Source: Candidatus Pacearchaeota archaeon
GTDB taxonomy: Archaea; Nanobdellota; Nanobdellia; Pacearchaeales; GW2011-AR1
Assembly (NCBI GenBank): GCA_019659125.1
Contig: JAIFVX010000001.1
Span: forward strand, 244,097-308,096
Direction of reading: 5' to 3'
DNA length: 64,000 bases
Program-made: the position numbers and the translations under genes
Shown here: positions 3,421-49,246 of the stretch, piece by piece
Layout of the letters: the number at the start of each line of letters is the position of its first letter
Numbering within the stretch: the first letter of the stretch is position 1
Notes under the pieces: model-generated
Databases searched by the model: none
What the model was told of the DNA's origin: nothing
The model's input: only the letters and a program-made list of their open reading frames with translations

Positions 3421-3441
3421 TCTGTGTGCACACATTAAGGC

Positions 3442-6820: not shown

Positions 6821-6897
6821 AATAAAATAAAGAAGTCTGGCTTAAATACCTGTTGAAAAGATTTATAAACAAATTCCCTCTCTAAAAGAAAAAGAAG

Positions 6898-7140
6898 ATG
6901 GATAAAAAAATAGGATACATTCTGCTGGTTGTTGGTGCTCTTATCGTTGTCAGTACTCTAGACTTCGTGAAGAAGACAATCCACCTTAACCTTGGCTTGA
7001 GCGACTGGATGGTGGCATTGATAGGTGGAATAATCTTTATCATAGGTGCCTATTCTGTGGGCGGTGGAAGATCAAAGCAGTCACAGGAAGTCCCTATTTA
7101 TCACGGTAAGAACATCGTCGGCTATAGACGAGTTAAGTAA
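6898..7140 (+). CDS. Small membrane protein, two transmembrane segments (80 aa)
   Basis: Two hydrophobic segments (about residues 5-22 and 36-54) are separated by a short loop, followed by a basic C-terminal tail. A TTTATAAA box is centred 32.5 nt upstream, a little farther than usual here. It ends flush against the last gene of the four-gene membrane cluster, which converges on it (7140/7141). Function unknown. Confidence 0.6.
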   Translation: MDKKIGYILLVVGALIVVSTLDFVKKTIHLNLGLSDWMVALIGGIIFIIGAYSVGGGRSKQSQEVPIYHGKNIVGYRRVK

Positions 7141-7923: not shown

Positions 7924-7944
7924 CATCTCTGAAGAAATAAGAAG

Positions 7945-7952
7945 TTTATAAA
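7945..7952 (-). promoter_or_regulatory. TATA box of array gene 1
   Basis: TTTATAAA, centre 25.5 nt before the ATG at 7923. It sits just downstream of the stop codon of array gene 2, so the genes are separate transcription units. Confidence 0.5.
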
Positions 7953-7953
7953 T

Positions 7954-8784: not shown

Positions 8785-8805
8785 TACTGGGAAAGCAATA
8801 AAAGG

Positions 8806-8811
8806 TATATA
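8806..8811 (-). promoter_or_regulatory. TATA box of array gene 2
   Basis: TATATA within GGTATATAAAC (plus-strand reading), centre 24.5 nt before the ATG at 8784. Confidence 0.45.
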
Positions 8812-8819
8812 AACATTTC

Positions 8820-9473
8820 TCAGCGTTTGCTTGCTTTTATCTCTATATCATGAATTCTTTCTACATCTTCTGCTTTCTCTCCCTGCCGAGCCTCAGCATC
8901 TTTCTTTTGGCTTTCCTTAAGCTGTTTGCCAATAAGCTTCATATAGGTAGAATAGAATAAGAGAAGAACAACGCCAAGGGCAATAGATAGTATAATTCTC
9001 CACAAGCCTCCAAAAAAAGGAGATGCAAGAAGTACTGCTTTGGCAAGCAAACCGTTCCGTGCCCCTAAAGCAGGAATGATAACAGCTATTCCCACGGCGA
9101 CCCATTGATTTGTTTGAAAGATTTCCTTAACAACACGATAAATAATAACAAACATGACAACCCATAACCCTAAAGAAAGAAAGAAAATCCACGATAACGA
9201 GTAATCAATTCCAATCAATACTTTGAAAACAGGGCTAAGAGCAGTAAAAAAAGAACTTATCCTAAGAAAAAACCTTCCTACTGGACTCTTACTAAGCAAG
9301 TCAACCCAGGACTGTTGCAGATATGTGGTCCGTGCATCAGCATCGGACACAGTCTGCACCGTATTAACAACTTTATTATCCTGAATACTACCAGCATCAA
9401 GAGCGTGAACGAAATGGACTGCGAATAATACCAAGGTAACAAAAACAAACAATCTGGTAACTCTTTTACTCAT
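8820..9473 (-). CDS. Membrane protein 3 of the four-gene array (divergent member)
   Basis: About 217 aa. Signal peptide, a ~60-residue extracytoplasmic stretch, three or four hydrophobic segments and a charged C-terminal tail rich in Lys/Glu. It has the same overall plan as its neighbours but lacks the FLPFVI and FDGTL landmarks, so it is either a very divergent paralog or a functional partner. Start set at MSKRVTRLF because a TTTAAA box is centred 24.5 nt upstream; the frame extends seven codons further. Confidence 0.6.
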   Translation of the reverse strand: MSKRVTRLFVFVTLVLFAVHFVHALDAGSIQDNKVVNTVQTVSDADARTTYLQQSWVDLLSKSPVGRFFLRISSFFTALSPVFKVLIGIDYSLSWIFFLSLGLWVVMFVIIYRVVKEIFQTNQWVAVGIAVIIPALGARNGLLAKAVLLASPFFGGLWRIILSIALGVVLLLFYSTYMKLIGKQLKESQKKDAEARQGEKAEDVERIHDIEIKASKR

Positions 9474-11411: not shown

Positions 11412-11837
11412 CTATTCAAGAACGCCTGCTTTGAAATATTCCCTAGCCCGTTCAAGATGCCACTCAAAAGGTTTTCCGTCAAATTTTTCATACAATGCAC
11501 TTGCCAGACAACCCTCTTTCAACCGTTGATAATGTTCATTAGTAACCCCTTCCGGACGAGGAATTGTAGGAACACGAACAACATACTCGTCAAAATCCCT
11601 ACGCACCTCCATCCTCTTCAAAAGATTATCACGAACAACAGGATTTCTTACAGTAAGATTCAAACGCTTGAATACTGCATCCTTCTGAGTGGCAGCACGA
11701 GCGATACGTACATCTGCGCCAGCGCCATCCATAGCAACATCTACAGGCAATGTAACAAGATATTCATGCATAGGTCCATCTACGGAAGGCGTATGCTTTG
11801 AGACATACTTTTCTAATGAACGTGTTCTTTTTATCAT
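11412..11837 (-). CDS. Hypothetical protein, 141 aa
   Basis: Not recognised. A soluble, charged protein. The central part (RLNLTVRNPVVRDNLLKRM) looks helical and basic, and the C-terminus holds a WHLERAREYF helix. It is directly upstream of fen on the same strand, and a weak FEN-1 promoter lies in the 33-nt gap, so it may or may not share a transcript. No membrane segment or cysteine motif. Confidence 0.6.
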   Translation of the reverse strand: MIKRTRSLEKYVSKHTPSVDGPMHEYLVTLPVDVAMDGAGADVRIARAATQKDAVFKRLNLTVRNPVVRDNLLKRMEVRRDFDEYVVRVPTIPRPEGVTNEHYQRLKEGCLASALYEKFDGKPFEWHLERAREYFKAGVLE

Positions 11838-11946
11838 GATTTATCACATAAAACAGTACTTTTAAACCTTTCTAAAGTATCCCCCACTGAGTGGCAACAA
11901 AAGGCCATGAAGGAAGCTATAAAAATGGAATTCGCTTCAAAGGAGG

Positions 11947-14277
11947 ATGAAAGGATTTGTTGTCTACGCTACTTACTCCACAGTGGAAGGAAGGACGCAA
12001 GTGGAACTCTATGGGAGACTGGAGAATGGAGAATCCTTTCTCACCATAAACAAAGTTGAGCCTTACTTCTTCATCAAGAAAAGCGACAGCCAGAAAGCCT
12101 CCCCTTTGCTAAAAAAGTACACGGTTGAAGAAACACACTCAAAAACATTTCAGAGCGAGCCAGTGATAAAAATATCATCCAAAACCCTTACCGAGTTGAA
12201 TCTTCTTGTAAAGGCTCTCAAGCTGAAAAACATTACTGCCTATGAAGCAGATGTAAAGCCCCAATATCAGTTCCTCATGGACTGCAATATAAAAGGAAGC
12301 ATGTCAATCGAAGGAGAGTTCAAGGAATCTGAAAGAATAAATAGAATCTATGAAAATCCAACTATAGAGCCAACAGACTTCAAGCCGGAACTGAAGATTG
12401 TGGCAATCGATACAGAATCAGGTGAAAAAGGATTGTATTGTATAGGGCTGTACTCCAAGAACTATAAGAAAAACTTTATGATCACCAATAAGAAGCTTGA
12501 AAACACAGTCTCAGTCAAGACAGAGGCAGAAGCATTACTAAAGTTCAAGGAAGCGCTTATACAACTAGATCCTGACATCATTACGGGATGGAATGTCATT
12601 GATGCCGATCTTCTCTTCCTCAAAGAGCTCTTTCAAAAGCATAGGATTCATTTCGACCTTGGAAGAACGGAAGATCAAGTCAAACTGAGGATAGAAGAAG
12701 ACTTTTTTAGAAAATCATCTGCAGATGCCACCGGAAGAGTGGTTCTCGATGGCTTGAACCTGATTAGAGACCCTTTTATTCAGGAAGCCCCTTCAATAAA
12801 AAACTCGAAGTTTGACACCTACACTCTTGAAGATGTTTCACAATCTCTTCTAGGACAAGGAAAACTGCTTAAGGGTAAAAACAGGCACGAAGAGATAGAC
12901 CAATTATATAAAAGCCAGAAAGAGAAAGATCTCCAAAGGCTTGTTGATTATAACCTGCTTGATTGCAAGTTGGCATATGACATAATAACGAAAGCTCATA
13001 TTGATGAACTATCAATTGATCGTTCACAGCTTACAGGAATGCCTCTCGATAGGCTGTTGTCGTCAATTGCGGCGTTTGATTCCGTGTACATACGAGAAGC
13101 GCGAAAACGAGGCCTTGTATCGCCAACGACGCAATATAGTGAAAAAGAAACGCCTATCAAGGGGGGATATGTCTATTCTTCAAAATCAGGGATATTCCAT
13201 AATGTCCTTATATTAGACTTTAAATCCCTGTATCCTTCAATAATAAGAACCTTCAATATAGATCCGTCATCATTCCTAGAAAAGAAGGAGTCTGGAGCAA
13301 TTGAATCCCCTAACAAGGCCTACTTCAAGAATCAAGATGGAATTCTTCCCTTGATCATTGAAAACCTTCACAAGGCGCGAGAAAAAGCAAAGAAAGAGAA
13401 GAGAGAGCTTGCAAGTTATGCGATAAAGATCATTATGAACTCGTTCTTTGGAGTTCTTGCTTCTCCTAACTGCAGATATTTCAATTTAAAGATTGCAAAT
13501 GCAATTACTCATTTTGGGCAGATGATAATTCAACTGACTGCAAAAGAGATTGAAAAGAAAGGGTATAAAGTCATCTATTCAGACACAGACTCTGTCTTTA
13601 TAGAAACAAACCTTTCTGAAGACAGGGCGAATAAAGTGGGAGAAGAGCTAGGACAGTATATAACAAAGTTTTATGAAGAGTATATTCATAAAAATTACAA
13701 TAGAAAATCCTATCTAGAGCTCCAATTTGCAAAGCAATATCTTTCCCTTATGATCCCTGGTGTAAGGAACGGTGGAGAAGAGATTGCTGCAAAAAAAAGA
13801 TACGCCGGCCTTCACAAAGTAGATGGAAAGGAAGTACTCGAAATAGTAGGTCTCGAAGCAATCAGAGGAGACTGGACAGAAGCAGCCCGTGAGTTTCAAA
13901 GAGAATTGCTCATGAAAGTTTTCCACAAAGAACCTATTGAAGCGTTCATTAAAGACTATATCAAAAAAATAAGGCAGGGAAAAGTTGATGAAAAACTAAT
14001 TTACAGGAAATCAATCAGGAAAAACCTTGATGAATACACAAAGACTACTCCCCCTCATGTAAAGGCAGCACGAATGCTTTCACATCTTGATTCAAATGTC
14101 ATTCAGTATTATATAACTGAAAATGGTCCAGAGCCCATTCAGATGCACAAAAGCAAGCTCGACTATGACCACTACATCAAGAAGCAAATAGAGCCCATTG
14201 CCAACCAAGTCCTCTCCCTTCTAGGCAAGAATTTCGAAGAAGCTGCTCAAGAATCAAAGCAGGCTAAGTTGTTTTAA
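11947..14277 (+). CDS. polB: Family B DNA polymerase, resembling bacterial DNA polymerase II
   Basis: The 776-aa protein has proofreading exonuclease motifs Exo I (A-I-D155-T-E157), Exo II (GWNVIDADL, ~214) and Exo III (YNLLDCKLA, ~334), and polymerase motifs A (DFKSLYPSII, ~424), B (KIIMNSFFG, ~494) and C (YSDTDS, ~544). The stretch from KKRYAGL through TPPHVKAARM to NGPEPI follows E. coli Pol II closely by memory, as do the length (Pol II has 783 aa) and the QAKLF end (QLGLF in Pol II). Whether this is the main replicase cannot be told from this window. A TATAAAAA box lies ~27 nt upstream, and GGAGG abuts the ATG. Confidence 0.93.
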   Translation: MKGFVVYATYSTVEGRTQVELYGRLENGESFLTINKVEPYFFIKKSDSQKASPLLKKYTVEETHSKTFQSEPVIKISSKTLTELNLLVKALKLKNITAYEADVKPQYQFLMDCNIKGSMSIEGEFKESERINRIYENPTIEPTDFKPELKIVAIDTESGEKGLYCIGLYSKNYKKNFMITNKKLENTVSVKTEAEALLKFKEALIQLDPDIITGWNVIDADLLFLKELFQKHRIHFDLGRTEDQVKLRIEEDFFRKSSADATGRVVLDGLNLIRDPFIQEAPSIKNSKFDTYTLEDVSQSLLGQGKLLKGKNRHEEIDQLYKSQKEKDLQRLVDYNLLDCKLAYDIITKAHIDELSIDRSQLTGMPLDRLLSSIAAFDSVYIREARKRGLVSPTTQYSEKETPIKGGYVYSSKSGIFHNVLILDFKSLYPSIIRTFNIDPSSFLEKKESGAIESPNKAYFKNQDGILPLIIENLHKAREKAKKEKRELASYAIKIIMNSFFGVLASPNCRYFNLKIANAITHFGQMIIQLTAKEIEKKGYKVIYSDTDSVFIETNLSEDRANKVGEELGQYITKFYEEYIHKNYNRKSYLELQFAKQYLSLMIPGVRNGGEEIAAKKRYAGLHKVDGKEVLEIVGLEAIRGDWTEAAREFQRELLMKVFHKEPIEAFIKDYIKKIRQGKVDEKLIYRKSIRKNLDEYTKTTPPHVKAARMLSHLDSNVIQYYITENGPEPIQMHKSKLDYDHYIKKQIEPIANQVLSLLGKNFEEAAQESKQAKLF

Positions 14278-29276: not shown

Positions 29277-30011
29277 TCACTTTATGTCATTTTCTTCAAC
29301 GTTAAATTTTACGTTAAGCCTAATAGTTTTAACTTCATAACCCTTTGATTCTAGAGTTTCCATCACCTGTTTTTGATGCTCTTTAATTTTTGAATCATTC
29401 GATTTAATCTCACAGAATGATATCTTTTTATCTTTCAAACAAATTAAATCCGGGTAACCTTTCCCAAAAGACTTAAGTAACTTCATGACTTTATTTTTCT
29501 TAGAGTATTTTTGAAGAAGACGGCCTACTCCTTTCTCGTTGAAAATAGAAGCATCTATTTCGTAATCATAATACATAGTTTTTGCAATCTTATAACCCTC
29601 ATTTCTTAATTTATTAGCAAACCACATCTCTGCAATAAACCCTCTAATCCCTCTATTATTCCAACCAGTTCTTCTTCCCTTTTCAAGAGCTTCTAATTGA
29701 GAAGGAGAAGGCATGTCTATTTCGTCTTCTATAGAATACACTTCAATATCCCTTAAAAATGTAGTCTTACACTTAGGACAGTAAAATTCTCTATTAAAAC
29801 CTGCTTCATGATCTGACATTTGTCCGTCTGACATTTCTTCAAAATTATCTTTAGCTAACTGCACTTCTATCAGAGCAGAATTACATTTCTCGCATCTATA
29901 ATGGACAATTTCGAATATCATCTTTTGTTTTAGACAGTCGGCAAAGTAAGAAGTTTTCTGTATTCTTTCAATCTTATCATAATCTTCTTTATTTAAAATA
30001 AGTTCATTCAT
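29277..30011 (-). CDS. Zinc-ribbon / VRR-NUC-like (PD-(D/E)XK) nuclease, paired with an RHH protein
   Basis: The 244-aa protein has a zinc ribbon (C40, C43, C78, C81) and a C-terminal region with PD-(D/E)XK/VRR-NUC hallmarks: E128, then GYPD188LICL, CE201IK203 and the helix Q-K-Q-V-M (~213). These residues would bind metal and cleave nucleic acid. The start overlaps the RHH gene's stop by 4 nt. The gene is AT-rich compared with its neighbours. The pair resembles a toxin-antitoxin or defence module; the target is unknown, and the fold call rests on motifs only. Confidence 0.6.
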   Translation of the reverse strand: MNELILNKEDYDKIERIQKTSYFADCLKQKMIFEIVHYRCEKCNSALIEVQLAKDNFEEMSDGQMSDHEAGFNREFYCPKCKTTFLRDIEVYSIEDEIDMPSPSQLEALEKGRRTGWNNRGIRGFIAEMWFANKLRNEGYKIAKTMYYDYEIDASIFNEKGVGRLLQKYSKKNKVMKLLKSFGKGYPDLICLKDKKISFCEIKSNDSKIKEHQKQVMETLESKGYEVKTIRLNVKFNVEENDIK

Positions 30012-30298
30012 TTTGCCTTACCTTTCTTTGAAAGATTTAGTTCTCTAGCTTTCCTTATATCTTGAGGAATTTCCTTCCACTCAAACCTATCCTTAACTTC
30101 TTCTTCTGTTGCTATAAGATTAATGTAATCTTCAATAAGTTGTTCATCAATCTCATCTTCAGTGTTATCAATATGTTCTTGTACGGCTATTTTTATAACT
30201 TGATTTCTGTCTATACCCATTCTATCAGCAAATTCATCAATCTGCTTCAACATATTCATTTCAAAACGAACTCCAACTAATTTTGTTTTATCTGCCAT
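30008..30298 (-). CDS. Ribbon-helix-helix (CopG/Arc-like) DNA-binding protein
   Basis: The 96-aa protein has an N-terminal RHH fold (TKLVGVRFEMNMLKQIDEFADRMGIDRNQVIKIAVQEHI, residues 5-45: beta strand, helix, turn, helix) and an acidic C-terminal tail with a basic end that could bind a partner. RHH proteins commonly autorepress toxin-antitoxin operons. A perfect palindrome lies 1 nt before the ATG. Translationally coupled to the downstream nuclease-like gene. Confidence 0.75.
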   Translation of the reverse strand: MADKTKLVGVRFEMNMLKQIDEFADRMGIDRNQVIKIAVQEHIDNTEDEIDEQLIEDYINLIATEEEVKDRFEWKEIPQDIRKARELNLSKKGKAK

Positions 30299-31017: not shown

Positions 31018-31428
31018 ATGAGATATACCCAGGGATTGATAGGCCTCTTGATTCTAGCTGAACTTGTTCTTGCAGGCTCTGTGTTGTGGGGAGACTATCA
31101 CCAGGAAACAGTATGCGTATTCGGTTCTGGATGCAGTGAAGTGCAGCATTCAATCTATAGCACAATCCTTGGTATAAAGGTAAGTATGTTTGGATTCATA
31201 TCATTCATCCTTCTCGCCATACTCTATGTCCTTTCCCACACTAAAACGATAAAACCAATTGTATTCGTCAGCGTGGCAAAGCTAGGAGCATTCTTCTCTT
31301 TGTACTTCCTCATCATCCAATTCTTTGTCCTCAAGAAAATATGCTCAACCTGCCTTGTGATTGATATAATGATGATTCTTATTGCATCACTTGCAATCTA
31401 CGACCTTTTGAAGAACAAGAATTATTAA
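31018..31428 (+). CDS. Vitamin K epoxide reductase (VKOR) family protein
   Basis: The 136-aa protein has four transmembrane helices, the loop cysteine pair C33 and C39, the conserved serine S46 in SIYSTILGI and the redox C109-S-T-C112 motif in the last helix. VKOR homologs re-oxidise DsbA-like proteins by passing electrons to quinone. The membrane-anchored DsbA at 2482 is a probable partner, so the organism seems to make extracytoplasmic disulfides. No thioredoxin domain is fused. Confidence 0.88.
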   Translation: MRYTQGLIGLLILAELVLAGSVLWGDYHQETVCVFGSGCSEVQHSIYSTILGIKVSMFGFISFILLAILYVLSHTKTIKPIVFVSVAKLGAFFSLYFLIIQFFVLKKICSTCLVIDIMMILIASLAIYDLLKNKNY

Positions 31429-38193: not shown

Positions 38194-38751
38194 ATGGAAT
38201 TTAAAAGAGGGAGACCCACAGTCTTGGCAGGCATTGTCATGTGTTTAGCGTTCGTAGCTGTTCTTCATACCGTTGTCGTTATTATACGATATGGTACGGG
38301 AATTTCGGGAGTGTATGAGCACGGAGTTTCAGGATTTTCCGTGGGGAAAACAGACTTAGGAGAGGAGATCACGAGCGCAAATCCATCTATACCTCTAAGA
38401 TCAAAAATAATTCTTGCGACGGAATGGGCCGCTCTTGTTGCGATTATCCTCTTCATCCTTGTGAGGGAGAAGACTGATCAGACGGAAGAGCCTATCACAT
38501 TTAATCTTGAAGAGGCCTATGGTAAATCACGGACAAAAACCGATCTTGACGTGTTGTATGATATCTTACGTGAAAGAAAACATCTCCGCCTTTCAACTAT
38601 TTGCAAGCTCTTTAAGGTAAAGAAAGAGCTCGTCATCGAATGGGCAGAGATACTCGAGCGAGCAGAGCTTGCTATCATTGATTATCCTAAACTGGGGGAG
38701 CCAGTCATAAAAATAAATGAAACACCATCACAGCCAGCCAGCCAAGCATAA
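38194..38751 (+). CDS. Membrane-anchored winged-helix protein
   Basis: The 185-aa protein has two transmembrane segments (about 9-30 and 72-92) and a cytoplasmic C-terminal wHTH-like domain (about 115-170; HLRLSTICKLFKVKKELVIEWAEILERAEL). Membrane-bound one-component regulators of this form exist in archaea; here it heads the pilus gene cluster and overlaps the secretion ATPase gene by 35 nt, so it may regulate the cluster or join the assembly machine. Function inferred from layout only. Confidence 0.6.
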   Translation: MEFKRGRPTVLAGIVMCLAFVAVLHTVVVIIRYGTGISGVYEHGVSGFSVGKTDLGEEITSANPSIPLRSKIILATEWAALVAIILFILVREKTDQTEEPITFNLEEAYGKSRTKTDLDVLYDILRERKHLRLSTICKLFKVKKELVIEWAEILERAELAIIDYPKLGEPVIKINETPSQPASQA

Positions 38752-40372
38752 GTCTAAGCATCCAGCAATAAGACATGTAGCACATCACAAGCTAGTGCAC
38801 ACCATAGTGAACAAGCTTGTTCAGCCGATTCAGCCAGTGATGCACAAGCCCGAGGCCATAGTAGAGCGAAAACCTGAAAAGGAAGAATCTAAGATCGCAG
38901 ACAAATATGAGATCAGCATTGATGGCGCCAAGGTCACTATTGAAGTAAGGAAAGAAAAGCTGGGCTATGTCTATTATCTTAACGTACCAAGTGTCAACAT
39001 TGCCACCGCAACGCTCATGAAAGAGATACGTGACGAATTGATTACCGTCACCACCATCAGTATGAAAGAGCTTGCAGACCCAGAATCTTTTTTCGTCATT
39101 AAGCAAAGATTCATCAGAGATGCTGTAAAAATCATACGAGAAAAGCTCCCTCATCTGAATGAGGAAACAGAGAAATTCCTGATAGGAAAGCTGATTCAGG
39201 ATATGCTTGGTCTGGGGGAGATAGAATTCCTTATCAATGATCCTATTCTTGAGGAGATTGTCATTCCTTCGTCGAAAGAGCCTATACGAGTGTATAATAA
39301 AAAGTTTGGATGGCTTGAGACAAACCTCACCATCAGGAGAGAGGAAGACATCATCAACTATGCAAATATTATTGCCCGAAGAGTAGGTAGACAGATCACC
39401 GTATTAAGCCCATTGCTTGACGCGCACCTGGTAACGGGCGATAGAGTTAACGCAGTTCTCTACCCCGTGAATACGAAGGGAAACACCATTACCATAAGAA
39501 AATTCGCTCGTGATCCATATACAATCATTGACATGATTAATAACAAGACGTGTGACTCTGAAACTGCCGCCTTGCTCTGGCTTGCGATGGAATATGAAAT
39601 GAACATTCTCATCTCGGGAGGTACAGGAAGTGGAAAAACATCGTTCCTGAATGCATGCCTTCCATTCATTCCCCCTAACCAGCGAATCATTAGTATTGAA
39701 GACACTCGTGAGTTGATGCTTCCTGAATTCCTTTACTGGACACCTCTGGTTACACGAACACCAAACCCTGAAGGGAAGGGAGAGGTGAGCATGCTTGATC
39801 TTCTTATCAACTCTCTGAGAATGAGGCCTGACAGAATTATTCTTGGGGAAATGAGAAAACAGCAGGAAGCAATGGTTCTCTTTGAGGCCATGCATACCGG
39901 TCACTCAGTCTATGCTACAGTGCACGCAGATTCTGCATCAGAAACTATTGCACGACTCGTGAATCCTCCTATCAGTGTCCCTCCCAATCTGCTTCGATCC
40001 GTCCATCTTAATGTAGTCATGTTTAGAGATAGAAGAAAAGGAATTCGAAGAATACTACAGATCGCTGAATTTGAGGCAGAGAAGAATACTGCGCGATCGA
40101 ACATCCTCTACCGATGGGTTCCTGAGGAGGATAAGATGGTATTGCACAGTGAAAGCTCTCGGTTCTTTGAATCAATCTTCAGGAACACGGGAATGTCTGA
40201 GACTGAAATAAACAAAGTTCTTGCTGACAAGAAACAGATACTTGAATGGCTTATAAAAAACAACATCAGAAGCCTTGAGGAATTCGGAAGGGTCATGAAC
40301 CTATACTACAAGAGCAAAGACACCCTGTTGAAGGCAATGAAGGAAAACTCCATAGCCTGGATACGGGGATGA
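38717..40372 (+). CDS. Type II/IV secretion (GspE/TadA/ArlI-type) ATPase
   Basis: The 551-aa hexameric ATPase powers pilus assembly. A His/Lys-rich N-terminus (~40 residues) is followed by an N-terminal domain, then the C-terminal RecA-like domain with Walker A GGTGSGKTS (~301), an Asp box (IISIEDTREL), Walker B (RMRPDRIILGEMR) and His box (THADS-like TVHADSASETIARL). The start lies inside the end of the preceding gene; a later in-frame ATG (about residue 43) is an alternative. Confidence 0.92.
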   Translation: MKHHHSQPAKHKSKHPAIRHVAHHKLVHTIVNKLVQPIQPVMHKPEAIVERKPEKEESKIADKYEISIDGAKVTIEVRKEKLGYVYYLNVPSVNIATATLMKEIRDELITVTTISMKELADPESFFVIKQRFIRDAVKIIREKLPHLNEETEKFLIGKLIQDMLGLGEIEFLINDPILEEIVIPSSKEPIRVYNKKFGWLETNLTIRREEDIINYANIIARRVGRQITVLSPLLDAHLVTGDRVNAVLYPVNTKGNTITIRKFARDPYTIIDMINNKTCDSETAALLWLAMEYEMNILISGGTGSGKTSFLNACLPFIPPNQRIISIEDTRELMLPEFLYWTPLVTRTPNPEGKGEVSMLDLLINSLRMRPDRIILGEMRKQQEAMVLFEAMHTGHSVYATVHADSASETIARLVNPPISVPPNLLRSVHLNVVMFRDRRKGIRRILQIAEFEAEKNTARSNILYRWVPEEDKMVLHSESSRFFESIFRNTGMSETEINKVLADKKQILEWLIKNNIRSLEEFGRVMNLYYKSKDTLLKAMKENSIAWIRG

Positions 40373-41256
40373 CGATGAAGTTTAGGATACCTTTTACGGT
40401 AGCCTCTCTCGATAAGCTGAAGAAAAGGGCTGACTACCTTCGAAAATATGTAAAATACAAGAAAAATGCATCACTCCATCTCTATCTTGAAAACTGTGAT
40501 GTTACTATATCGAGAGAAGAGTATCTTTCGATTGTCCTTAACAAATTTATAGTCGCCTTCGTCATAGTGCTCCTTGTTTTGACTCCGACCTTGACATTGG
40601 TGGGTGCAACCTCTCCTTACCTTATGTCCTTGGGCATCACGGTGCTTTTTTCAGGATTCATGGCCTTCAGTCAGCTGCTGTACCCTAAGATATATGTGGG
40701 AAGGAAACAGAAGAACATAGAAAGAAACCTTATCCCGGCGCTTGAAGACATGCTTGTCCAGCTCAACTCAGGCATCCCTCTTTTTTCAATCCTCGTGAAT
40801 GTCGCAACATCAGATTACGGGGAACTCAGTAAAGAATTCAAGAAGGCAGTAAGAAAAATTAATGCTGGACTTCCCGAAACCGATGTGCTTGAGGAGCTAG
40901 GAGAAAAGAACATATCAGTCTTCTTCAGGAGAACACTTTGGCAATTAAGTAATGGAATGAGGACAGGAAGCGATATCTCAGTTGTCATCAAAGATAGCGT
41001 AAAATCTCTAGCAGAAGAACAGCTTATCCAGATACAGAATTATGGAAACAAGCTGAACCCTCTTATCATGTTCTACATGCTTATTTCAGTCATTCTGCCA
41101 GCACTTTCAATCACGTTCCTCACTATAATATCATCGATGGTCAACCTTCCTAAGCAGGCAACGACGCTCATGTTCGTTGGCCTGTTTGTCGTTGTCATAA
41201 TCGTCCAGCTCATGTTCCTTGGTACCGTCCGTTCGTTGCGGCCAAGCCTCCTATGA
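40369..41256 (+). CDS. TadC/GspF-family pilus assembly membrane protein (first of two)
   Basis: The 295-aa platform protein has about four transmembrane segments: two near residues 55-95 and two near 235-290, with a cytoplasmic helical domain in between (LVQLNSGIPLFSILVNVATSD, MRTGSDISVVIKDSV), as in T2SSF domains. Overlaps the ATPase stop by 4 nt; a second ATG lies two codons in. Together with the next gene it resembles a split archaellum ArlJ. Confidence 0.88.
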   Translation: MTMKFRIPFTVASLDKLKKRADYLRKYVKYKKNASLHLYLENCDVTISREEYLSIVLNKFIVAFVIVLLVLTPTLTLVGATSPYLMSLGITVLFSGFMAFSQLLYPKIYVGRKQKNIERNLIPALEDMLVQLNSGIPLFSILVNVATSDYGELSKEFKKAVRKINAGLPETDVLEELGEKNISVFFRRTLWQLSNGMRTGSDISVVIKDSVKSLAEEQLIQIQNYGNKLNPLIMFYMLISVILPALSITFLTIISSMVNLPKQATTLMFVGLFVVVIIVQLMFLGTVRSLRPSLL

Positions 41257-42158
41257 AAAGAATAGAAGAAATGAAGAGAAAGAAGGCGCGAGAAAGAAAT
41301 CTCATCATAGTAAGCGGAATAAGCGTTGTGATAGGATTGATTGCCTTCTACTATGGTGGAGCACTAGCGTCAATAGCTGCAATTGTATTGAGTGCAGGGG
41401 CAATCTTAGGCTATCAGTACATGAGGAACCTCATGCAGGAGTCTATAAAGATAAAGAAGATGGAAGAGGTCTTCCCTGATTTCATCGACCTCATGGCCTC
41501 CAATCTTCGGGCGGGAATCACGATAGATAAGGCAATCCTCTTGAGCGCCAGAAAGGAGTTTGCCCCCTTAGATAAAGAGATAATGAATCTCGGAAAGGAC
41601 ATAGTAACAGGAAAAGAAATAAGTCAGGCATTACTCGATCTTAATTCTCGAGTGAATTCAGACAAGATACGAAAGACTATCGAGCTGATCATTTCAGGAA
41701 TCCGGGCGGGAGGCAATCTGTCCACATTGCTTGAGCAGACTGCTGCAAATATGCGGGATAAGCAGTTCGTTGAAAAGAGAGCGGCATCCAATGTCCTTAT
41801 GTATGTCATATTCATATTCTTCGCCGTTGCGGTAGGAGCTCCTGTCCTGTTCGCACTCTCCTCAGTCCTTGTGGAAGTGCTGACAAAGATCCTCTCCAAC
41901 CTTCCAGTGCAGGACACAGGACGCTTCAGCATTGGCTTCACTCTCACAAAGATAAATATTTCGGTGAATTTCATCATATGGTTTTCCGTGTTCTTCATTA
42001 TTGCAACGGATGTGCTTGCATCATTCGTCCTTGGACTGGTAAGCAAAGGTGAGGAGAAAGCAGGCACTAGGTATATCATTCCTCTCTGCCTTACGAGCGT
42101 CGCCGTCTTCTTTATAGTAAGGACAGTACTCATCAAGTACTTTTCAGGACTATTTTAA
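41253..42158 (+). CDS. TadC/GspF-family pilus assembly membrane protein (second of two)
   Basis: 301 aa with two N-terminal and two or three C-terminal membrane segments flanking the T2SSF helical domain (FPDFIDLMASNLRAGITIDKAIL, SGIRAGGNLSTLLEQT). Overlaps the first TadC gene by 4 nt. Two adjacent single-domain platform proteins replace the single larger ArlJ-type protein. Confidence 0.88.
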   Translation: MKRIEEMKRKKARERNLIIVSGISVVIGLIAFYYGGALASIAAIVLSAGAILGYQYMRNLMQESIKIKKMEEVFPDFIDLMASNLRAGITIDKAILLSARKEFAPLDKEIMNLGKDIVTGKEISQALLDLNSRVNSDKIRKTIELIISGIRAGGNLSTLLEQTAANMRDKQFVEKRAASNVLMYVIFIFFAVAVGAPVLFALSSVLVEVLTKILSNLPVQDTGRFSIGFTLTKINISVNFIIWFSVFFIIATDVLASFVLGLVSKGEEKAGTRYIIPLCLTSVAVFFIVRTVLIKYFSGLF

Positions 42159-42195
42159 CGGGTAGGATAAGTTTTTATAGAGTCGATGACTGGGA

Positions 42196-43122
42196 ATGAA
42201 AATGAAGAAAAAGGGGAAGAAAGTAGTAAAAAAAGTGTTGAAGTGGCCAACAAAGCCAATGGCTAGGAAGGTAAAAAGGATGGCGAAGAAAGTCGCTAAA
42301 AAGTCTGCAGTGACTGTGCATAGGCCAAAGGTCGCTCATGCAAAGCACATTCTAAAGCACGCTAGAAAACACGCAAGAAGACCAATAGGAATACCGAAAA
42401 AACCCCATACACGTATGCAATATCTTGGAAGGGTTCCCACCTATATTCCTAATTTTGATGTCCTGGTGCAGGGGGGATTTGAAAAAAACTCAACAAACCT
42501 TGTCGTAGGAGGCTCAGGTAATGGAAAATCCATCTTTGCAACCCAATTCCTAATAGGTGGGATGAATAAGGGGGAAAAGGCGCTCTATGTGACTTTCGAG
42601 GAAAAGAAAGACCAGTTCTATGCGAACATGAAAGAGTTCGGCTGGGACCTTGTGGAATATGAGAAAAAAGAGCTCTTTACATTCCTTGAATATACTCCAG
42701 GAAAAGTTCAAACCATGCTTGAGGAAGGGGGAGGGGCTATCGAAAGTATCATTCTTAAGAAAAAGATATCACGAGTGGTGATTGACAGTATAACATCTTT
42801 TGCGCTCCTCTTTGAAGATGAGCTATCAAAGCGTGAAGCTGCGCTTTCCCTGTTCAATATGATCCACAAGTGGAATTGCACATCCGTTCTTACTTTGGAA
42901 GAAGATCCGAAGGCAGGAAAGCTTGGGCCCCAGACGTTGCAGTTTGAATCTGACTCTATTGTCATTCTTTATTACCAGCTTAATAGAAGAGAGCGAGAAC
43001 GTTACCTTGAAATTCTAAAAATGAGGGGTACAAAGCACTCGAAGAAAATCTATAAGTTTGGCATTGATAAGAGAGGCATTGTGATCGACAGAAGGCCGTG
43101 CGCAAACCCACTCGTCGAATAA
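42196..43122 (+). CDS. KaiC/ArlH(FlaH)-like RecA-fold ATPase with a basic N-terminal tail
   Basis: 308 aa. The RecA/KaiC domain (about 75-305) has Walker A VGGSGNGKS (~104-112) and Walker B RVVIDSITSF (~198). ArlH-type proteins work with the secretion ATPase in archaellum or pilus assembly, as expected from the position behind the GspE and TadC genes. The first ~60 residues are extremely Lys/Arg/His rich (e.g. KKKGKKVVKKVLKWPTKPM), histone-H1-like, and not part of the known ArlH fold. Confidence 0.85.
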   Translation: MKMKKKGKKVVKKVLKWPTKPMARKVKRMAKKVAKKSAVTVHRPKVAHAKHILKHARKHARRPIGIPKKPHTRMQYLGRVPTYIPNFDVLVQGGFEKNSTNLVVGGSGNGKSIFATQFLIGGMNKGEKALYVTFEEKKDQFYANMKEFGWDLVEYEKKELFTFLEYTPGKVQTMLEEGGGAIESIILKKKISRVVIDSITSFALLFEDELSKREAALSLFNMIHKWNCTSVLTLEEDPKAGKLGPQTLQFESDSIVILYYQLNRRERERYLEILKMRGTKHSKKIYKFGIDKRGIVIDRRPCANPLVE

Positions 43123-43598
43123 TGAAAAAAGCTCAGGCCTGGGGGATGGATTTGATGATAGCAGGAATTATTTTTATCACGGCCATTATAGCGCTCTACC
43201 TCTACTCGCTTAATTACTCGAATGAAGGAGAAGAGATTCTCAAGGAGCTTCAATCAGATGGAGAGACGATGGCTTCCCTCTTGCTTTCAGAAGGAGCCCC
43301 TGTTGACTGGAATATCACTTCAGTTATAGTCCCAGGGATTTCAAGCGCGAATAAAATCAATGACACAAAGTTAGGCTACCTGTACACGCTTTCAGTAAAT
43401 AACTATACAAGGACACAGCTCATGCTCAATACAAAATACAACTATTTCATATTCTTTTCGACGCCGATGGTAATCCAAGGCAATACCGTCTCAGGGATAG
43501 GGATGAATACATCATCGCCCAGCAATCTTATAACGATCACTCACTATACGAGTTATCAGAACAAGCTTGCCACTATGTACGTGCAACTATGGAATTAA
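43122..43598 (+). CDS. Pilus-locus pseudopilin-like protein, 158 aa
   Basis: Starts at MKKAQAWGMDLMIAGIIF; the ATG shares one base with the previous stop (TAATG). A short basic start leads directly into a hydrophobic helix, as in pilins, though without the canonical Glu5. The rest is an extracellular domain with several N-x-S/T sites. Its position between the ATPase and the large surface protein suggests a minor pilin or pseudopilin. Confidence 0.7.
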   Translation: MKKAQAWGMDLMIAGIIFITAIIALYLYSLNYSNEGEEILKELQSDGETMASLLLSEGAPVDWNITSVIVPGISSANKINDTKLGYLYTLSVNNYTRTQLMLNTKYNYFIFFSTPMVIQGNTVSGIGMNTSSPSNLITITHYTSYQNKLATMYVQLWN

Positions 43599-46021
43599 AA
43601 AAAAGAGGCATTTTCTTCAGTGTTGACGCGCTTATAGCAGTCAGTATCGTGCTCCTCGTCATAGCGATAGCATATCCTATCATCCACTATCAAAAGCCAA
43701 AGACTGAAGTCCATTATGACATCATCACAACCCTTTCGGCGTTAAAGGTTGGAGAGATTGACAATCTCTATGTACAATCATTGATAGCGAACGGTACTAT
43801 TACCGATATGAACAAGTCCTTGCTTGAGCAGATAGGAGAGTTCTATGCAACCGACATCAATCAGGCACGAGCGTTAGGTGACAGCGTGCTCTCAACCCTT
43901 GACACAAAATACAATGTAGGGCTTTGGTATGGGGGGACCCTCGTTGCATCAAAAAACTCAACACCGTTTGAAAATGCAAAGGACGTTGACATTGCCACAC
44001 AGCTCATAAGCGGTCTTAAGGAAGGGGGTAGTGCAAAGGGCTACTCTGCCCGAGGATACTTATCAAACCAATTTAAGAGCGACTATTATTACTTCGGAGG
44101 ATACGTAGGAGATGGCAACATCAGCAGAATCGTTAATTATTCCGGAAATATTTCATCTGTTTCTATGGAGATGGTCGCAAGCACCAATTTCACAGTATAT
44201 GTGAATGGAAATCTTGAGGGGAGCTTTTCAGGCGCCGTATCAGAGACAACCCCGATGGCATACACTGTCCCTCTTACTCACTTTGTCAGTGGAGCAAACA
44301 CGATAGAATTGGGAGGAAGCAATCTCCATATAACTGGGGGATATATAAAAATCTCCTACCAGAGCTCTGCCCAATACCAGCAGCCAAAATATAATTTTCC
44401 AGGTATCGATGGAATCATCAATATCTATGATGGTTTGTATGTGCCCAGCACTCTTAACAGCATGAGTGTCTACCTCCATTACAACAGCAGCTACCAGACA
44501 TTTCTCATAATAGGAAATGTCACTGTCTTTAGCAATGCAACACCATCAGAAACATCTATCACTCTCAGCAACGCACAGTTATCTGCTCTTCTCAACTATA
44601 ATGATCTTTCGAACAAGACAATTCCTATAAGGCTTGGATTGCTGAATGTAACATATCTGCCTGGTAACAATGCGTATGTAATCTCAGTTGCTGATTTATC
44701 GGGAGGGGTCAGTTCAGCGAGGGCTGCTGGCTGTGGAAACGATGGGCTATGCGCAGTGCAGAAAGCAAACTATCTTCTGGTCAATTCCCTCCTTGGTCTT
44801 AACAATACTGCACTTGGACTCGTAGGAAATCACCAAGGAACGGTTAATCCTCTTTATTCACATCCTCTCTCGACCAATAAAACATCCCTTAACAATACGA
44901 TAAAGACCTGGAGCAACAATGGAAACCTTGACCTATGCTATGGCATAAAAAACGCAACTGACACCTTGAAAGTCATATCAGGAGATACCATTAAATCAAT
45001 AATTCTTTTGGGTACAAAGTTTCCCAACAGTTGTCTAGGAGCAAGCGGGAATGTATGGCAAGATACGTACAATCTGGCATGTCAAGCATGGACAAATTAC
45101 AGTATAAGGATAAACACGATAGGAGTAATAGGCAACTCGCAATCAGACGCAAACCTCGGCACGTTGTTGTATAATATTTCCCGATGCACGAATGCAACAT
45201 ATTACAACCAAAGCGTTAGTAATGACCTTGTAGATCTCTATAATAAAACATTGAATGACATTCTTAATTTGACATATTACCTCCAAACGGCCAGTTCAAC
45301 AGGAAATTTTATGACAAGGCTCTATCCTGATTCATATATAGACATAAGTTATGATGCAGTGACTCCTTACGGACTTATTGTCACAGGAGAGAAAATGTTT
45401 TCAAACACCACCTCAGGGTCTTTTGATCTTCCGCAGAATTCAAGTATTGTTGAGACGCGCGTGATATCATACTCTGGGCCCAAATGGACAGCCTTTGTAA
45501 AAGCAAACACAACCACGGTCTATAATCTCACCAGATATGGAAGCAACTACATCCAGCTAGGAGATCCCTATGCTATTAACATTCCGAACGCTAATATCAA
45601 GCAGAACAACACATTTTCACTACAGACAGGAGTAACTACAACAAACCTTTCCGCTGGTTCTGATTACAACAAAATCATCTACACAGTCAAGAAAAATGCC
45701 TCAAGCTACACTCCGATTGTTGCTGCAGCCCAAGGATGTTCATGGACGCTGCAGCATGAAGATGGAACGAACGTCACAATCCATATACCTATGGGGTATG
45801 CAGGCCCCAACACCTGCTTCTACACTGCCTTACAGCAAGCATACAATGAGAATGATGCATTGCAGGCAGCAGCATATTCAGTCGTCAAAGCTCTTGACTT
45901 TGATGGCAATAACAAGATTGACATAAGGCTTTCTCAAAATGATATTCAAATCAGCTCGTCTGAAGTTCAAGGAATCCCATTCATATGGTCCACAGAGGTG
46001 CAGGCGCGAGTATGGGTATAG
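43589..46021 (+). CDS. Large pilus-associated surface protein with vWA-like region
   Basis: The 810-aa protein has a pilin-like N-terminus (MELKKRGIFFSVDALIAVSIVLLVI) and is otherwise extracytoplasmic, with many N-glycosylation sequons. The stretch ~440-560 resembles a von Willebrand A-like fold (IKSIILLGTKFPN, a conserved strand RINTIGVIG and SDANLGTLLYNISRCTNATYY), though the metal-site Ser/Thr residues are not certain. A tip adhesin is plausible, in the manner of PilC/PilY1, but this is inference. Overlaps the previous gene by 10 nt. Confidence 0.68.
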   Translation: MELKKRGIFFSVDALIAVSIVLLVIAIAYPIIHYQKPKTEVHYDIITTLSALKVGEIDNLYVQSLIANGTITDMNKSLLEQIGEFYATDINQARALGDSVLSTLDTKYNVGLWYGGTLVASKNSTPFENAKDVDIATQLISGLKEGGSAKGYSARGYLSNQFKSDYYYFGGYVGDGNISRIVNYSGNISSVSMEMVASTNFTVYVNGNLEGSFSGAVSETTPMAYTVPLTHFVSGANTIELGGSNLHITGGYIKISYQSSAQYQQPKYNFPGIDGIINIYDGLYVPSTLNSMSVYLHYNSSYQTFLIIGNVTVFSNATPSETSITLSNAQLSALLNYNDLSNKTIPIRLGLLNVTYLPGNNAYVISVADLSGGVSSARAAGCGNDGLCAVQKANYLLVNSLLGLNNTALGLVGNHQGTVNPLYSHPLSTNKTSLNNTIKTWSNNGNLDLCYGIKNATDTLKVISGDTIKSIILLGTKFPNSCLGASGNVWQDTYNLACQAWTNYSIRINTIGVIGNSQSDANLGTLLYNISRCTNATYYNQSVSNDLVDLYNKTLNDILNLTYYLQTASSTGNFMTRLYPDSYIDISYDAVTPYGLIVTGEKMFSNTTSGSFDLPQNSSIVETRVISYSGPKWTAFVKANTTTVYNLTRYGSNYIQLGDPYAINIPNANIKQNNTFSLQTGVTTTNLSAGSDYNKIIYTVKKNASSYTPIVAAAQGCSWTLQHEDGTNVTIHIPMGYAGPNTCFYTALQQAYNENDALQAAAYSVVKALDFDGNNKIDIRLSQNDIQISSSEVQGIPFIWSTEVQARVWV

Positions 46022-46938
46022 GAAAAAAAGGCATTTTCTTCACGAGCATGGTGATCATCTTGCTTTCGTTGTTCTTCATTTCGTATGCCGCGTACTCCGA
46101 GTACACTGACAGAAGGCCTGTGGAAAAGAGAATTGAGACTATGAACAAGTTCCTTTTCTCTTTAGAAACAGATTTGTCACGACAGATGTACATTGCAGGA
46201 TTCTATTCTATTTTTATCATGGAAAAGGAGATCGTAGAGACGGGCACATACAATCCGAATGTCACCCAATCTTTTCAAGAGCTGTTTCTCAATGGCACGA
46301 TGCAAGGAAAGGATGAGCCATTTATCCTCGGCGCTAAGCTTCCTGATGTCCAAGCAACAATCAGTGCCAAGGCAGAAAAGATAAATGTCATTGTCAACAT
46401 GCAAAGTTCTACTCCACTCATTGATCAAGTCGATCCCTGGCATGTCCGCATCCGGCTTCCCATTAATCTTTCAGTCAGAGACGCGTCAAATCTTGCATCA
46501 TGGAATAAGAGCTATGAAGTGACTGCATTTGTTCCAGTCCAAGGTTTTGAAGATCCCCTCTATCTCGTTAACACCCATGGTCTTGTCAGTAATAACATAA
46601 CGAAAACTTCCTACACTCCATTCGTATCGGGGAGTAATGTCGCAAATCTTTTGCTGCATCTTCAGCAATCAGCATACTACGAGAATACATTAGCTCCTAG
46701 TTTTCTTGATCGATTGCAAGGAAAAACCTCAGCGAATACAAATGGCATCGAATCCTTTATCTATCTTCCAAAGCTTTCCGGCCAGGGTCTTACAGTGCAA
46801 GACAAAGCTGCAGTAGACTGGATTTACTTCTCATCAGCATCTCCAAGCGCATCGCACATACAAGGTATGCCATCATGGTTCAGGCTCGCCGACACACATC
46901 TCTCCACCTACAACGTTTCCAGCCTTACAGCTCCATGA
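46012..46938 (+). CDS. Pilus-locus membrane-anchored protein, 308 aa
   Basis: Begins MGIGKKGIFFTSMVIILLSLFF, very similar in its KKGIFF start to the previous protein, so both may use the same export or processing route. After the helix comes a long extracytoplasmic domain with N-x-S/T sites. Function unknown; possibly a PilX-like minor component. It overlaps the 810-aa gene by 10 nt and ends the operon before the pilin promoter. Confidence 0.65.
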   Translation: MGIGKKGIFFTSMVIILLSLFFISYAAYSEYTDRRPVEKRIETMNKFLFSLETDLSRQMYIAGFYSIFIMEKEIVETGTYNPNVTQSFQELFLNGTMQGKDEPFILGAKLPDVQATISAKAEKINVIVNMQSSTPLIDQVDPWHVRIRLPINLSVRDASNLASWNKSYEVTAFVPVQGFEDPLYLVNTHGLVSNNITKTSYTPFVSGSNVANLLLHLQQSAYYENTLAPSFLDRLQGKTSANTNGIESFIYLPKLSGQGLTVQDKAAVDWIYFSSASPSASHIQGMPSWFRLADTHLSTYNVSSLTAP

Positions 46939-46943
46939 CAATA

Positions 46944-46951
46944 TTTATAAA
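46944..46951 (+). promoter_or_regulatory. TATA box of the first major pilin gene
   Basis: TTTATAAA centred at 46947.5. The expected transcription start near 46973 gives a leader of about 50 nt before the ATG at 47025, unlike most genes here, which look leaderless. Confidence 0.45.
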
Positions 46952-46975
46952 CAGCCTATATGTAATATAGAGAAC

Positions 46976-46990
46976 CTAGTCATCGACTAG
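46976..46990 (+). promoter_or_regulatory. 5' leader hairpin of the first major pilin gene
   Basis: CTAGT-CATCG-ACTAG can fold into a 5-bp hairpin near the expected 5' end of the transcript. Downstream, GGAGGT (47013-47018) lies 6 nt before the ATG at 47025, a strong Shine-Dalgarno site. Confidence 0.45.
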
Positions 46991-47024
46991 ATTGATAGTA
47001 CAATAGGTAAAAGGAGGTTATAAC

Positions 47025-47477
47025 ATGCACGAAAGAAAAGGTCAAGCAGCTATGGAGTTCTTGATGACCTATGGTTGGGCAATTCTTGCCGCAATCATCG
47101 CTATTGGAGTCTTGGCATACTTTGGTGTGTTCAGTCCTGGTAAATACACGACAGGATCAACCGTAGTAAACCCCCCATTCTATGCAAACGCATGGAACGT
47201 TAAAGGAAATGGGATTAATATTGAGATCAAGAACAATGGTGGAGAGTTGTATAATATTACAAGTCTCAGTATCACTCCAGACATAGGATCCTGTACAGCT
47301 AATGATACTCAAATACTAATTGATGCGGGCGATGCGGTAGAACGTCATATACCATGCAGTGGATTGCCAGCAGTTGGAAGCAGTGTCAAGGGAGATATCT
47401 CGATTTCCTACCATAAGTCAGGAAGTACAATCGATCTCACATCTACAGGAACAATAGCCGAGAAAGTCACGGCTTAA
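47025..47477 (+). CDS. Type IV pilin, major-pilin-like (copy 1)
   Basis: 150 aa. Leader MHERKG, cleavage before Q-A-A-M-E, then the hydrophobic helix FLMTYGWAILAAIIAIGVLAY and a head domain with one cysteine pair (SCTAND...IPCSG) that could form a disulfide, and several N-x-T sites. A paralog lies 1.3 kb downstream with an identical 45-bp stretch. The TATA box, ~50-nt leader and strong ribosome-binding site suggest high expression. Processed by the archaeal prepilin peptidase. Confidence 0.88.
   Translation: MHERKGQAAMEFLMTYGWAILAAIIAIGVLAYFGVFSPGKYTTGSTVVNPPFYANAWNVKGNGINIEIKNNGGELYNITSLSITPDIGSCTANDTQILIDAGDAVERHIPCSGLPAVGSSVKGDISISYHKSGSTIDLTSTGTIAEKVTA
47040..47084 (+). repeat. 45-bp exact repeat, copy 1 (pilin coding region)
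   Basis: Identical to 48794-48838; it encodes the cleavage site and start of the pilin helix. It marks a duplicated gene pair and could be a recombination or gene-conversion substrate. Confidence 0.85.
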
Positions 47478-47512
47478 ATTTTTATTTTATTTTTCTCTCT
47501 TCTTATTTTTTA
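47478..47512 (+). terminator. T-rich terminator after pilin copy 1
   Basis: The stretch ATTTTTATTTTATTTTTC directly follows the pilin stop, followed by a CTCTTCTTATTTTTT tract: a U-rich archaeal termination signal. Confidence 0.6.
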
Positions 47513-47590
47513 TTGCCTAATGGCAATTATACGTCTTTTAGAAAAGTGTGAATAACCATAATTTTATATAATTCCATGAAATGAGGATTT

Positions 47591-48721
47591 ATGCCAGAAA
47601 TATGGGATTATGAAACAGAAGTAATAGATTATCTTAATCAAATTGATTCATTAGTAGAATCTGAGGAAAAGCAGAAGTTAGTTAAAGAATTAGCTGACAA
47701 GTTAGCTGGAGAGTTCAGTAGTAAAACCGATTCTATGATGGAAAGAATTAGGGAAATAAAATCAGACGTAAAGGCGCTAGGTATTCCAAAAAATCTTATG
47801 GATGTGCTTAAAGAAGCAATTTTTTGTTACGTTAATGGACAGTACTTATCTGCAATAGCATCTATAGGAATTACTTCAGAGCTCTTTTGTAGCCACATTT
47901 TTAGATTATATCTAGAAGGCCTTGGAATTGAGGAGTTTAAAATTAGAAGAAGAATTGATAGTTTTAACAAGATTAGTCAAGTTGAAAAAATAGAAACTCT
48001 ATATTCTATAGTGAATGTAAATGATGAAATATGTTCCATGCTTAAAGAAATCAGAAAGAAAAGAAATAATAGTATTCATCCAAATCAATCAAGAGATTAT
48101 AAAGAAGACTCGCTGGATTGTCTACAATGCATGATTCATATGTTAAATACATATTCTGAAAGTGTCTTAGACATACAGAAGGTTCCTAAAACTAATATAC
48201 TCCCGATCTTAAAAGAAACTGATGTTGCAATAGGAAACTTAAATGCTCCAGTGGTCATGTTCTGGTATTTTGACTATCAATGTCCTTTTTGTAAAAAGTT
48301 TTGGAAAGAAACGCTCCCCAGAATAAAATCAGAATACATTGATACTGGAAAATTAAGATTAGTGTATAAAGATTTTCCTTTGGAAAGCATACATCCTCTT
48401 GCGGAGGAATCTGCAGAGGTTACAAGATGTATTCAGCACAATATAAACAACGAAGAATATCTTACAATTCATAATAAAATATTTGAAAATCAAGAGTATA
48501 TTAATTCTGAAAATCTTCGCGCATGGGTCAACGAAATAGGATGCAACGTCGATTTTTGCATGCAACATCATGCTTACAGAGATGAAATTAAACAAAGTCG
48601 AATTGAGGCCATAAATGTTGGTGCTCTGGGAACGCCACACTTTGTTATAGGAGATTCTTCTATTCCAGGAACGCAGCAATATGAAGTTTTCAAACGAGTG
48701 ATAGAAAATGAATTAGCTTGA
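47591..48721 (+). CDS. HEPN-like domain fused to a DsbA-family thioredoxin domain
   Basis: A 376-aa fusion. Residues ~60-195 are helical with the HEPN ribonuclease-type motif R158-N-N-S-I-H163 (R-x4-H with polar N after R). Residues ~205-376 form a DsbA-like fold with redox C231-P-F-C234 and a cis-Pro loop GTPHFVIG, akin to the membrane DsbA at 2482. No signal peptide or membrane anchor, so it is probably cytoplasmic. AT-rich and wedged between two pilin paralogs. HEPN assignment is from motif and helical pattern only. A TTATATAA box lies ~23.5 nt before the ATG. Confidence 0.68.
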   Translation: MPEIWDYETEVIDYLNQIDSLVESEEKQKLVKELADKLAGEFSSKTDSMMERIREIKSDVKALGIPKNLMDVLKEAIFCYVNGQYLSAIASIGITSELFCSHIFRLYLEGLGIEEFKIRRRIDSFNKISQVEKIETLYSIVNVNDEICSMLKEIRKKRNNSIHPNQSRDYKEDSLDCLQCMIHMLNTYSESVLDIQKVPKTNILPILKETDVAIGNLNAPVVMFWYFDYQCPFCKKFWKETLPRIKSEYIDTGKLRLVYKDFPLESIHPLAEESAEVTRCIQHNINNEEYLTIHNKIFENQEYINSENLRAWVNEIGCNVDFCMQHHAYRDEIKQSRIEAINVGALGTPHFVIGDSSIPGTQQYEVFKRVIENELA

Positions 48722-48784
48722 TGATATCCGTAAAGTCACAATTATAAAAATCTTTATAAAGTATATAAGCCACATTTTGATACG

Positions 48785-49246
48785 ATGAAAAAGGGTCAAG
48801 CAGCTATGGAGTTCTTGATGACCTATGGTTGGGCAATTATGGTGGCGATTATTGTTGTTGGTGTTCTCGGTTATTATGGAGTGTTCAGTCCTGGTAAATA
48901 CATCACTGGATCTGCCATTCTCAATCCTCCATTCTATATGAATGCATGGAGTGTTGTGTCTGACGCTGATACAATCACACCAGGAGACCAAAGCGAGGTT
49001 AATATTGAGATCAAGAATAATGGTGGATCCAATTATGATGTCCGAAGTGTTGCTGTCGTAGGCTGCGGTCTTAACGACACGCAAACAACAATCTTGACGG
49101 GAAAGACACAAGCATTTAACATTCCATGCACTTCTCCCTTAGTGAATGGAGAAAACTTCAAGGGTGATGTGACTGTTGTCTACACAAAATCAGGAAGCAG
49201 CATAGAATCCACTTCTACAGGAACTATTGCTGAAAAGATTGCTTAA
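48785..49246 (+). CDS. Type IV pilin, major-pilin-like (copy 2)
   Basis: 153 aa. Leader MKKG, cleavage before Q-A-A-M-E, same helix start FLMTYGWAI and the same FSPGKYITGSAILNPPFY motif as copy 1, with a conserved cysteine pair (GCGLN...IPCTS) that could form a disulfide. Similar to copy 1 along its length but diverged in the head. TTTATAAA is centred 28.5 nt upstream and a second box 20 nt upstream, so it has little or no leader, unlike copy 1. Confidence 0.88.
   Translation: MKKGQAAMEFLMTYGWAIMVAIIVVGVLGYYGVFSPGKYITGSAILNPPFYMNAWSVVSDADTITPGDQSEVNIEIKNNGGSNYDVRSVAVVGCGLNDTQTTILTGKTQAFNIPCTSPLVNGENFKGDVTVVYTKSGSSIESTSTGTIAEKIA
48794..48838 (+). repeat. 45-bp exact repeat, copy 2 (pilin coding region)
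   Basis: Identical to 47040-47084. The two copies flank the HEPN-DsbA gene in the same orientation, so recombination between them would delete that gene and fuse the pilins. Confidence 0.85.

Follow-up and report, generated by a model that had tools for sequence, protein, structure and literature searches.

A gene in the 64,000-nucleotide stretch of Candidatus Pacearchaeota DNA analysed here (hereafter the window) joins a HEPN domain to a DsbA-like thioredoxin domain in one chain. It occupies positions 47591–48721 on the + strand and encodes a protein of 376 aa from an ATG start, a call that rests on the open reading frame and on a full-length homolog in the Pacearchaeota contig PFDB01000019 (genome G004). 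The N-terminal, DUF4145-like HEPN domain (residues 1–197; 47591–48181, +) carries R158-N159-x-x-x-H163 and an acidic residue, E97, in helix 2, while the C-terminal DsbA-like thioredoxin domain (residues 209–372; 48215–48706, +) carries C231-P-F-C234 and a cis-Pro, P349. A further dithiol motif, C177-L-Q-C180, lies in HEPN helix 4 (48119–48130, +) and, by a column check against six stand-alone relatives, occurs in the two fusions only. There is, in our estimate, an even chance that the protein is a cytosolic HEPN RNase, carried as defence or toxin cargo and gated by the attached dithiol/disulfide domain; we infer both the RNase activity and the redox gating.

The HEPN family is already known, including fusions of DUF4145, and the DsbA-attached HEPN is a new variant of it. 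The main text of a survey of the HEPN superfamily (PMC3710099) uses none of the terms thioredoxin, DsbA, disulfide or redox, and a literature search returned no paper joining HEPN with DsbA, nor HEPN with thioredoxin, fusion and disulfide. HEPN RNases act as effectors in CRISPR, restriction-modification-linked and abortive-infection systems, where the trigger is often the open question. If the proposed reading is true, this single-chain pairing of HEPN with a thiol-disulfide domain would be a direct and testable example of an immune RNase triggered by redox state, in very small archaea whose defence systems have received little study.

The N-terminal domain is a DUF4145-like HEPN domain

Taken alone, the window N-terminal domain scores 18.4 bits against DUF4145, under the Pfam cut-off of 23.1. 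A profile built from the two fusion copies recovered, from six further genomes of the class, stand-alone relatives of ~200 aa, and all eight family members (two fusions and six stand-alone proteins) match DUF4145, with a best E of 3.2e-5. The aligned relatives are 20–73% identical to the window domain, with the six stand-alone proteins at just 20–26%, and only ten columns of the eight-sequence alignment are invariant, including R158, N159, H163 and E97. Four weak HEPN matches in the order (G043, G075, G109 and G111) were rejected as chance hits to unrelated genes.

An AF2 model of the domain, predicted from the eight-sequence alignment (pLDDT 83, pTM 0.74), contains eight helices (residues 2–19, 25–55, 67–81, 85–110, 115–127, 130–139, 145–161 and 170–196). 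In this model R158 sits at the end of helix 3 of the four-helix HEPN fold (145–161), with H163 just beyond it and helix 170–196 next, and E97 falls within helix 85–110, a placement of arginine, histidine and acid that matches the description of the superfamily (PMC3710099). HEPN proteins lead the Foldseek search of the model against the PDB, with 2hsb on top (prob 1.00) and the HEPN toxins 7bxo and 5yep (HepT toxins), 1wwp and 2q00 among the other leading matches, at E-values that are weak, 0.017 at best. When the HEPN profile was searched against PDB sequences, only chance matches came back.

The motif R-x4-6-H alone is poor evidence for a HEPN domain and was rejected in that role, since more than half of the long window ORFs (18 of 33) have it; the stricter RN-x-x-[IVLA]-H occurs in one of the 33. 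The R158/H163 motif counts in the fusion because even divergent relatives all retain it and because it lies at the position expected in a HEPN fold. About 20% of DUF4145 domains are without the motif, and some HEPN domains function non-catalytically (PMC3710099). Together, the invariant residues, the DUF4145 matches in eight of eight members and the fold search make it secure that the N-terminal domain is a HEPN domain, of a DUF4145-like type. This agrees with the first-pass annotation of the DNA, which had called the domain HEPN-like and all-helical and had proposed a structure prediction, a fold search and a test of R/H conservation in homologs as checks: the predicted fold is HEPN, and both residues are invariant in all eight sequences.

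The DsbA domain lacks the membrane anchor of its relatives

Residues 209–372 match the Pfam families Thioredoxin_4 (E 6.3e-26; 92 bits against a cut-off of 23.2) and DSBA (E 2.9e-16), and a Foldseek search matched the DsbA structure 4pwo (E 9e-9), in keeping with a thioredoxin fold that carries a helical insert. ScsC and BcfH were also matched in the fold search, and both carry N-terminal segments; in DsbA-like proteins such as these, the N-terminal segments serve oligomerisation. The motifs R158-N-N-S-I-H163 and C231-P-F-C234 and the cis-Pro, which the earlier annotation had pointed out, are all present in the ORF, the cis-Pro within G347-T-P349, and are conserved in the sole close homolog.

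Searching the order for the DsbA half found matches in 54 of 180 genomes. All 28 further DsbA loci examined in the order (L057–L084) have an N-terminal hydrophobic anchor, with a hydropathy of at least 2.07, whereas the two fusions reach only 1.38. The window protein contains no signal or transmembrane segment (maximum 19-aa hydropathy 1.38), in keeping with the lack of a signal peptide noted in the first pass, and the extracytoplasmic signal or anchor that is a feature of DsbA/Thioredoxin_4 proteins is thus missing from the fusions. In a tree, the DsbA domain of the fusion falls within the anchored DsbAs, beside L057 (98/88, where the bootstrap is rough), on a long branch of 1.2. Since the sampled DsbAs of the order are anchored and the fusion DsbA is nested among anchored ones, the fusion probably arose by swapping the membrane anchor for the HEPN domain. 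With the HEPN domain in place of the anchor of its relatives, the DsbA domain is therefore predicted to be cytosolic; an extracytoplasmic oxidoreductase domain has apparently been re-used in the cytosol via anchor loss.

Separately from the fusion, the window encodes an anchored DsbA (2482–3435) and a VKOR homolog (31018–31428; E 6e-17), the latter a likely oxidant partner of anchored DsbAs such as the one at 2482–3435. An ordinary export pathway therefore exists apart from the fusion.

HEPN cysteines specific to the fusion

The HEPN part of the fusion contains five cysteines, a content of 2.5% compared with 0.67% in the window ORFs. C100, C148, C177 and C180 are found in both fusions and are missing from all six stand-alone relatives, while C79 is common to some of them. 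The PFDB01000019 copy retains each of the ten cysteines present in the window protein. The C-x-x-C of HEPN helix 4, exclusive to the DsbA-attached HEPN, is the best hint in the sequences of a plausible intramolecular redox control, within a cysteine pattern that rests on one related pair because just two fusion sequences are known. The full-length model has a pTM of 0.48 and does not support a domain-domain contact.

The window copy is a foreign-looking insertion between tandem pilin genes

Alignment by blastn with a genome of the same genus (G127) revealed that homology on the left stops at ~47514 and resumes on the right at ~48744, which delimits an inserted segment of ~1.23 kb (47515–48743, +) in place of ~21 bp at the empty site. 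The flanking pilin-like genes on the left (47025–47477, +) and right (48785–49246, +) stand adjacent to each other in G127, with the same L15e-like and MetG-like genes after them. The composition of the fusion ORF is also distinct, with a GC of 0.324 compared with 0.41 for the window, in line with the AT-richness already remarked upon, and a GC3 of 0.244 compared with 0.37–0.50 in four other genes checked. Because of the empty site in G127 and the low GC and GC3, the fusion is best described as foreign cargo and not as a pilus gene: on these comparisons it is a recent, one-gene, foreign-looking insertion for which the pilin locus is merely the landing site. The first-pass annotation had placed the gene between paralogous pilins with a 45-bp identical stretch, which we recovered at 47040 and 48794; its description of the gene as lying "inside a pilin locus", with the pilus link that this implies, proved misleading, since the comparison with G127 shows the gene to have entered later, on its own, between the tandem pilins.

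The two pilin-like genes are near-identical at their N-terminal coding ends (47036–47201 and 48790–48955, including the 45 bp exact match), which suggests a recent duplication or gene conversion, and the gap between them is where the insert landed. They belong to an archaeal type IV pilus/archaellum-like locus (38717–49246) that includes a secretion ATPase, a T2SSF protein, a KaiC-like ATPase and large surface proteins; no Pfam model recognises the tandem pilin-like genes of this locus. Elsewhere in the window, at 29277–30298, a VRR-NUC nuclease gene overlaps a weak ribbon-helix-helix (CopG-type) gene, possibly a toxin-antitoxin or mobile-element pair.

A second copy lies in a candidate integrative element

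In profile searches that covered several hundred genomes from the order, class and phylum, the fusion turned up only in the window genome and in PFDB01000019, so that the search for the same fusion in other genomes suggested in the first pass yielded one instance. The two proteins are 72% identical over their full length, and their divergence (pN ~0.15 and pS ~0.78, at which synonymous change is near-saturated) indicates purifying selection on both domains.

In PFDB01000019 the fusion starts 86 bp past a tRNA-Glu gene, an integrase (PHROG 216, E 7e-11) follows 72 bp after the fusion, and a queuosine-salvage gene and an MNT/HepT pair are encoded beyond it. A general direct-repeat search (5700–9300) found no att pair around the fusion, while matching the tRNA end specifically across a longer stretch gave one: a 16-nt copy of the 3′ end of tRNA-Glu at 12586–12601 of the locus (0.00 expected). 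As the tRNA 3′ end recurs there, an integrated element of ~6.7 kb fits the locus. This candidate tRNA-Glu integrative element (L001 5841–12601) comprises the fusion, the integrase, a TrmB-type regulator, the queuosine-salvage gene, the MNT/HepT pair and the 16-nt repeat; within it, a GC-rich stretch at ~11564–11860 looks foreign or mis-assembled. A PHROG match annotated as "DNA binding protein" (phrog_1305, E 1e-4) was also recorded.

Stand-alone relatives occur in restriction-modification operons

Coupling of DUF4145 to restriction-modification was noted earlier (PMC3506569). In genome G466 (L046 9353–17627), a stand-alone HEPN relative follows the type I genes HsdR, HsdM and HsdS and is itself followed by a second, different HEPN gene and a DUF2779/Cas4-like nuclease. 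The same region encodes a small protein whose C-terminus is hydrophobic over a stretch, and may represent a restriction-modification plus suicide cassette. In G240 (L048 257–4781) the relative is the last gene of a type III Mod-Res operon, and in G239 a YoeB/ParE-like gene lies near it. Such restriction-modification operons were seen only for the stand-alone relatives in G466 and G240, with none around either fusion. The defence link drawn in the first pass thus gains from relatives in restriction-modification operons and from a homolog that neighbours an integrase, with a HepT pair in the vicinity.

No antitoxin gene adjoins the window fusion, the insert being a single gene between two pilins, and PADLOC returned no match. 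The HEPN domain was not found in phages or plasmids by tblastn, nor by pattern matching in viral contigs. A viral or plasmid origin was considered and rejected: plasmid matches of the full protein are mostly annotated "DsbA family", and the two examined (L053 and L054) are short genes, no longer than usual for a DsbA.

Proposed mechanism and alternative readings

In the proposed mechanism, the fusion would be a one-gene defence or toxin cargo, horizontally moved among small (Pacearchaeota-type) archaea. Its HEPN domain would cut RNA, as motif-bearing HEPN domains generally do, and its DsbA domain would exchange disulfides with the HEPN cysteines C100, C148 and C177-x-x-C180. The RNase might be kept off in the normally reducing cytosol and turned on once the thiol balance is altered by infection or oxidative stress, or the reverse, and the outcome could be translation arrest, dormancy or cell death. 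More tentatively, and in our view somewhat improbably, the pair may represent a class of mobile, single-gene, redox-gated immune RNases, in which a cytosolic DsbA senses the thiol change brought by infection or oxidation and toggles the HEPN RNase via the helix-4 dithiol.

Other divisions of labour between the two domains were weighed. A HEPN RNase toxin or defence effector could carry the DsbA domain for something other than switching, as a dimerisation, substrate-binding or folding module or as a cis-acting brake. HEPN domains are fused to many different partners (PMC3710099), and the N-terminal segments of ScsC and BcfH give DsbA-like precedents; however, both CPFC and the cis-Pro loop are fully intact, the HEPN partner has its own fusion-specific cysteines, and we give this reading roughly one chance in four. 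The roles might also be inverted, with DsbA as the effector on host or viral protein cysteines and HEPN as an aiming part that binds RNA, ribosomes or a partner protein. Some HEPN domains, such as MtlR, are probably non-catalytic RNA binders (PMC3710099), and the long fusion DsbA branch is consistent with a changed function, but both fusions retain the RNase-motif residues R, N and H, and so do all the stand-alone relatives, which have no DsbA domain; the inversion is unlikely.

Least probable by far is a housekeeping fusion for pilus assembly, in which DsbA would oxidise pilins and the helical domain would be structural. The gene does lie between two pilin-like genes whose products each have two cysteines. 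Yet a protein without a signal or anchor would sit on the wrong membrane face, the pilin locus of the sister genome G127 is without the fusion, the other fusion is not near pilins, and anchored DsbAs and a VKOR are separately encoded in the genome. A pilus-linked function was rejected on the insertion evident from the empty site.

Comparison with known systems

The N-terminal domain of the putative redox-gated RNase shares with the DUF4145-like HEPN family (PF13643) the RN-x-x-x-H motif, the helix-2 acid, the helical fold and the association with restriction-modification and defence (PMC3710099; PMC3506569). It differs in scoring below the Pfam cut-off and in its DsbA partner, the surveyed DUF4145 fusions being to REase/helicase, TIR, AbiJ-NTD, DpnII-NTD, TM and other modules (PMC3710099). 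BxaP, a BREX-associated DUF4145 plus HEAT protein with demonstrated anti-phage activity (PMC10799925), likewise combines an N-terminal DUF4145 with an unrelated C-terminal module, although that module is HEAT-like and the protein is bacterial and BREX-linked. MNT-HepT toxin-antitoxin systems have the HEPN fold in common with the fusion, and the candidate island that holds the PFDB01000019 homolog includes one such pair, but HepT belongs to another HEPN family and the window gene is without an adjoining nucleotidyltransferase antitoxin. On the DsbA side, the anchored DsbA/Thioredoxin_4 proteins of the same archaeal family (such as L057 and L004), among which the fusion is nested, share Thioredoxin_4 with CPFC and the cis-Pro; they have an N-terminal transmembrane anchor of their own, where the fusion has a HEPN domain instead.
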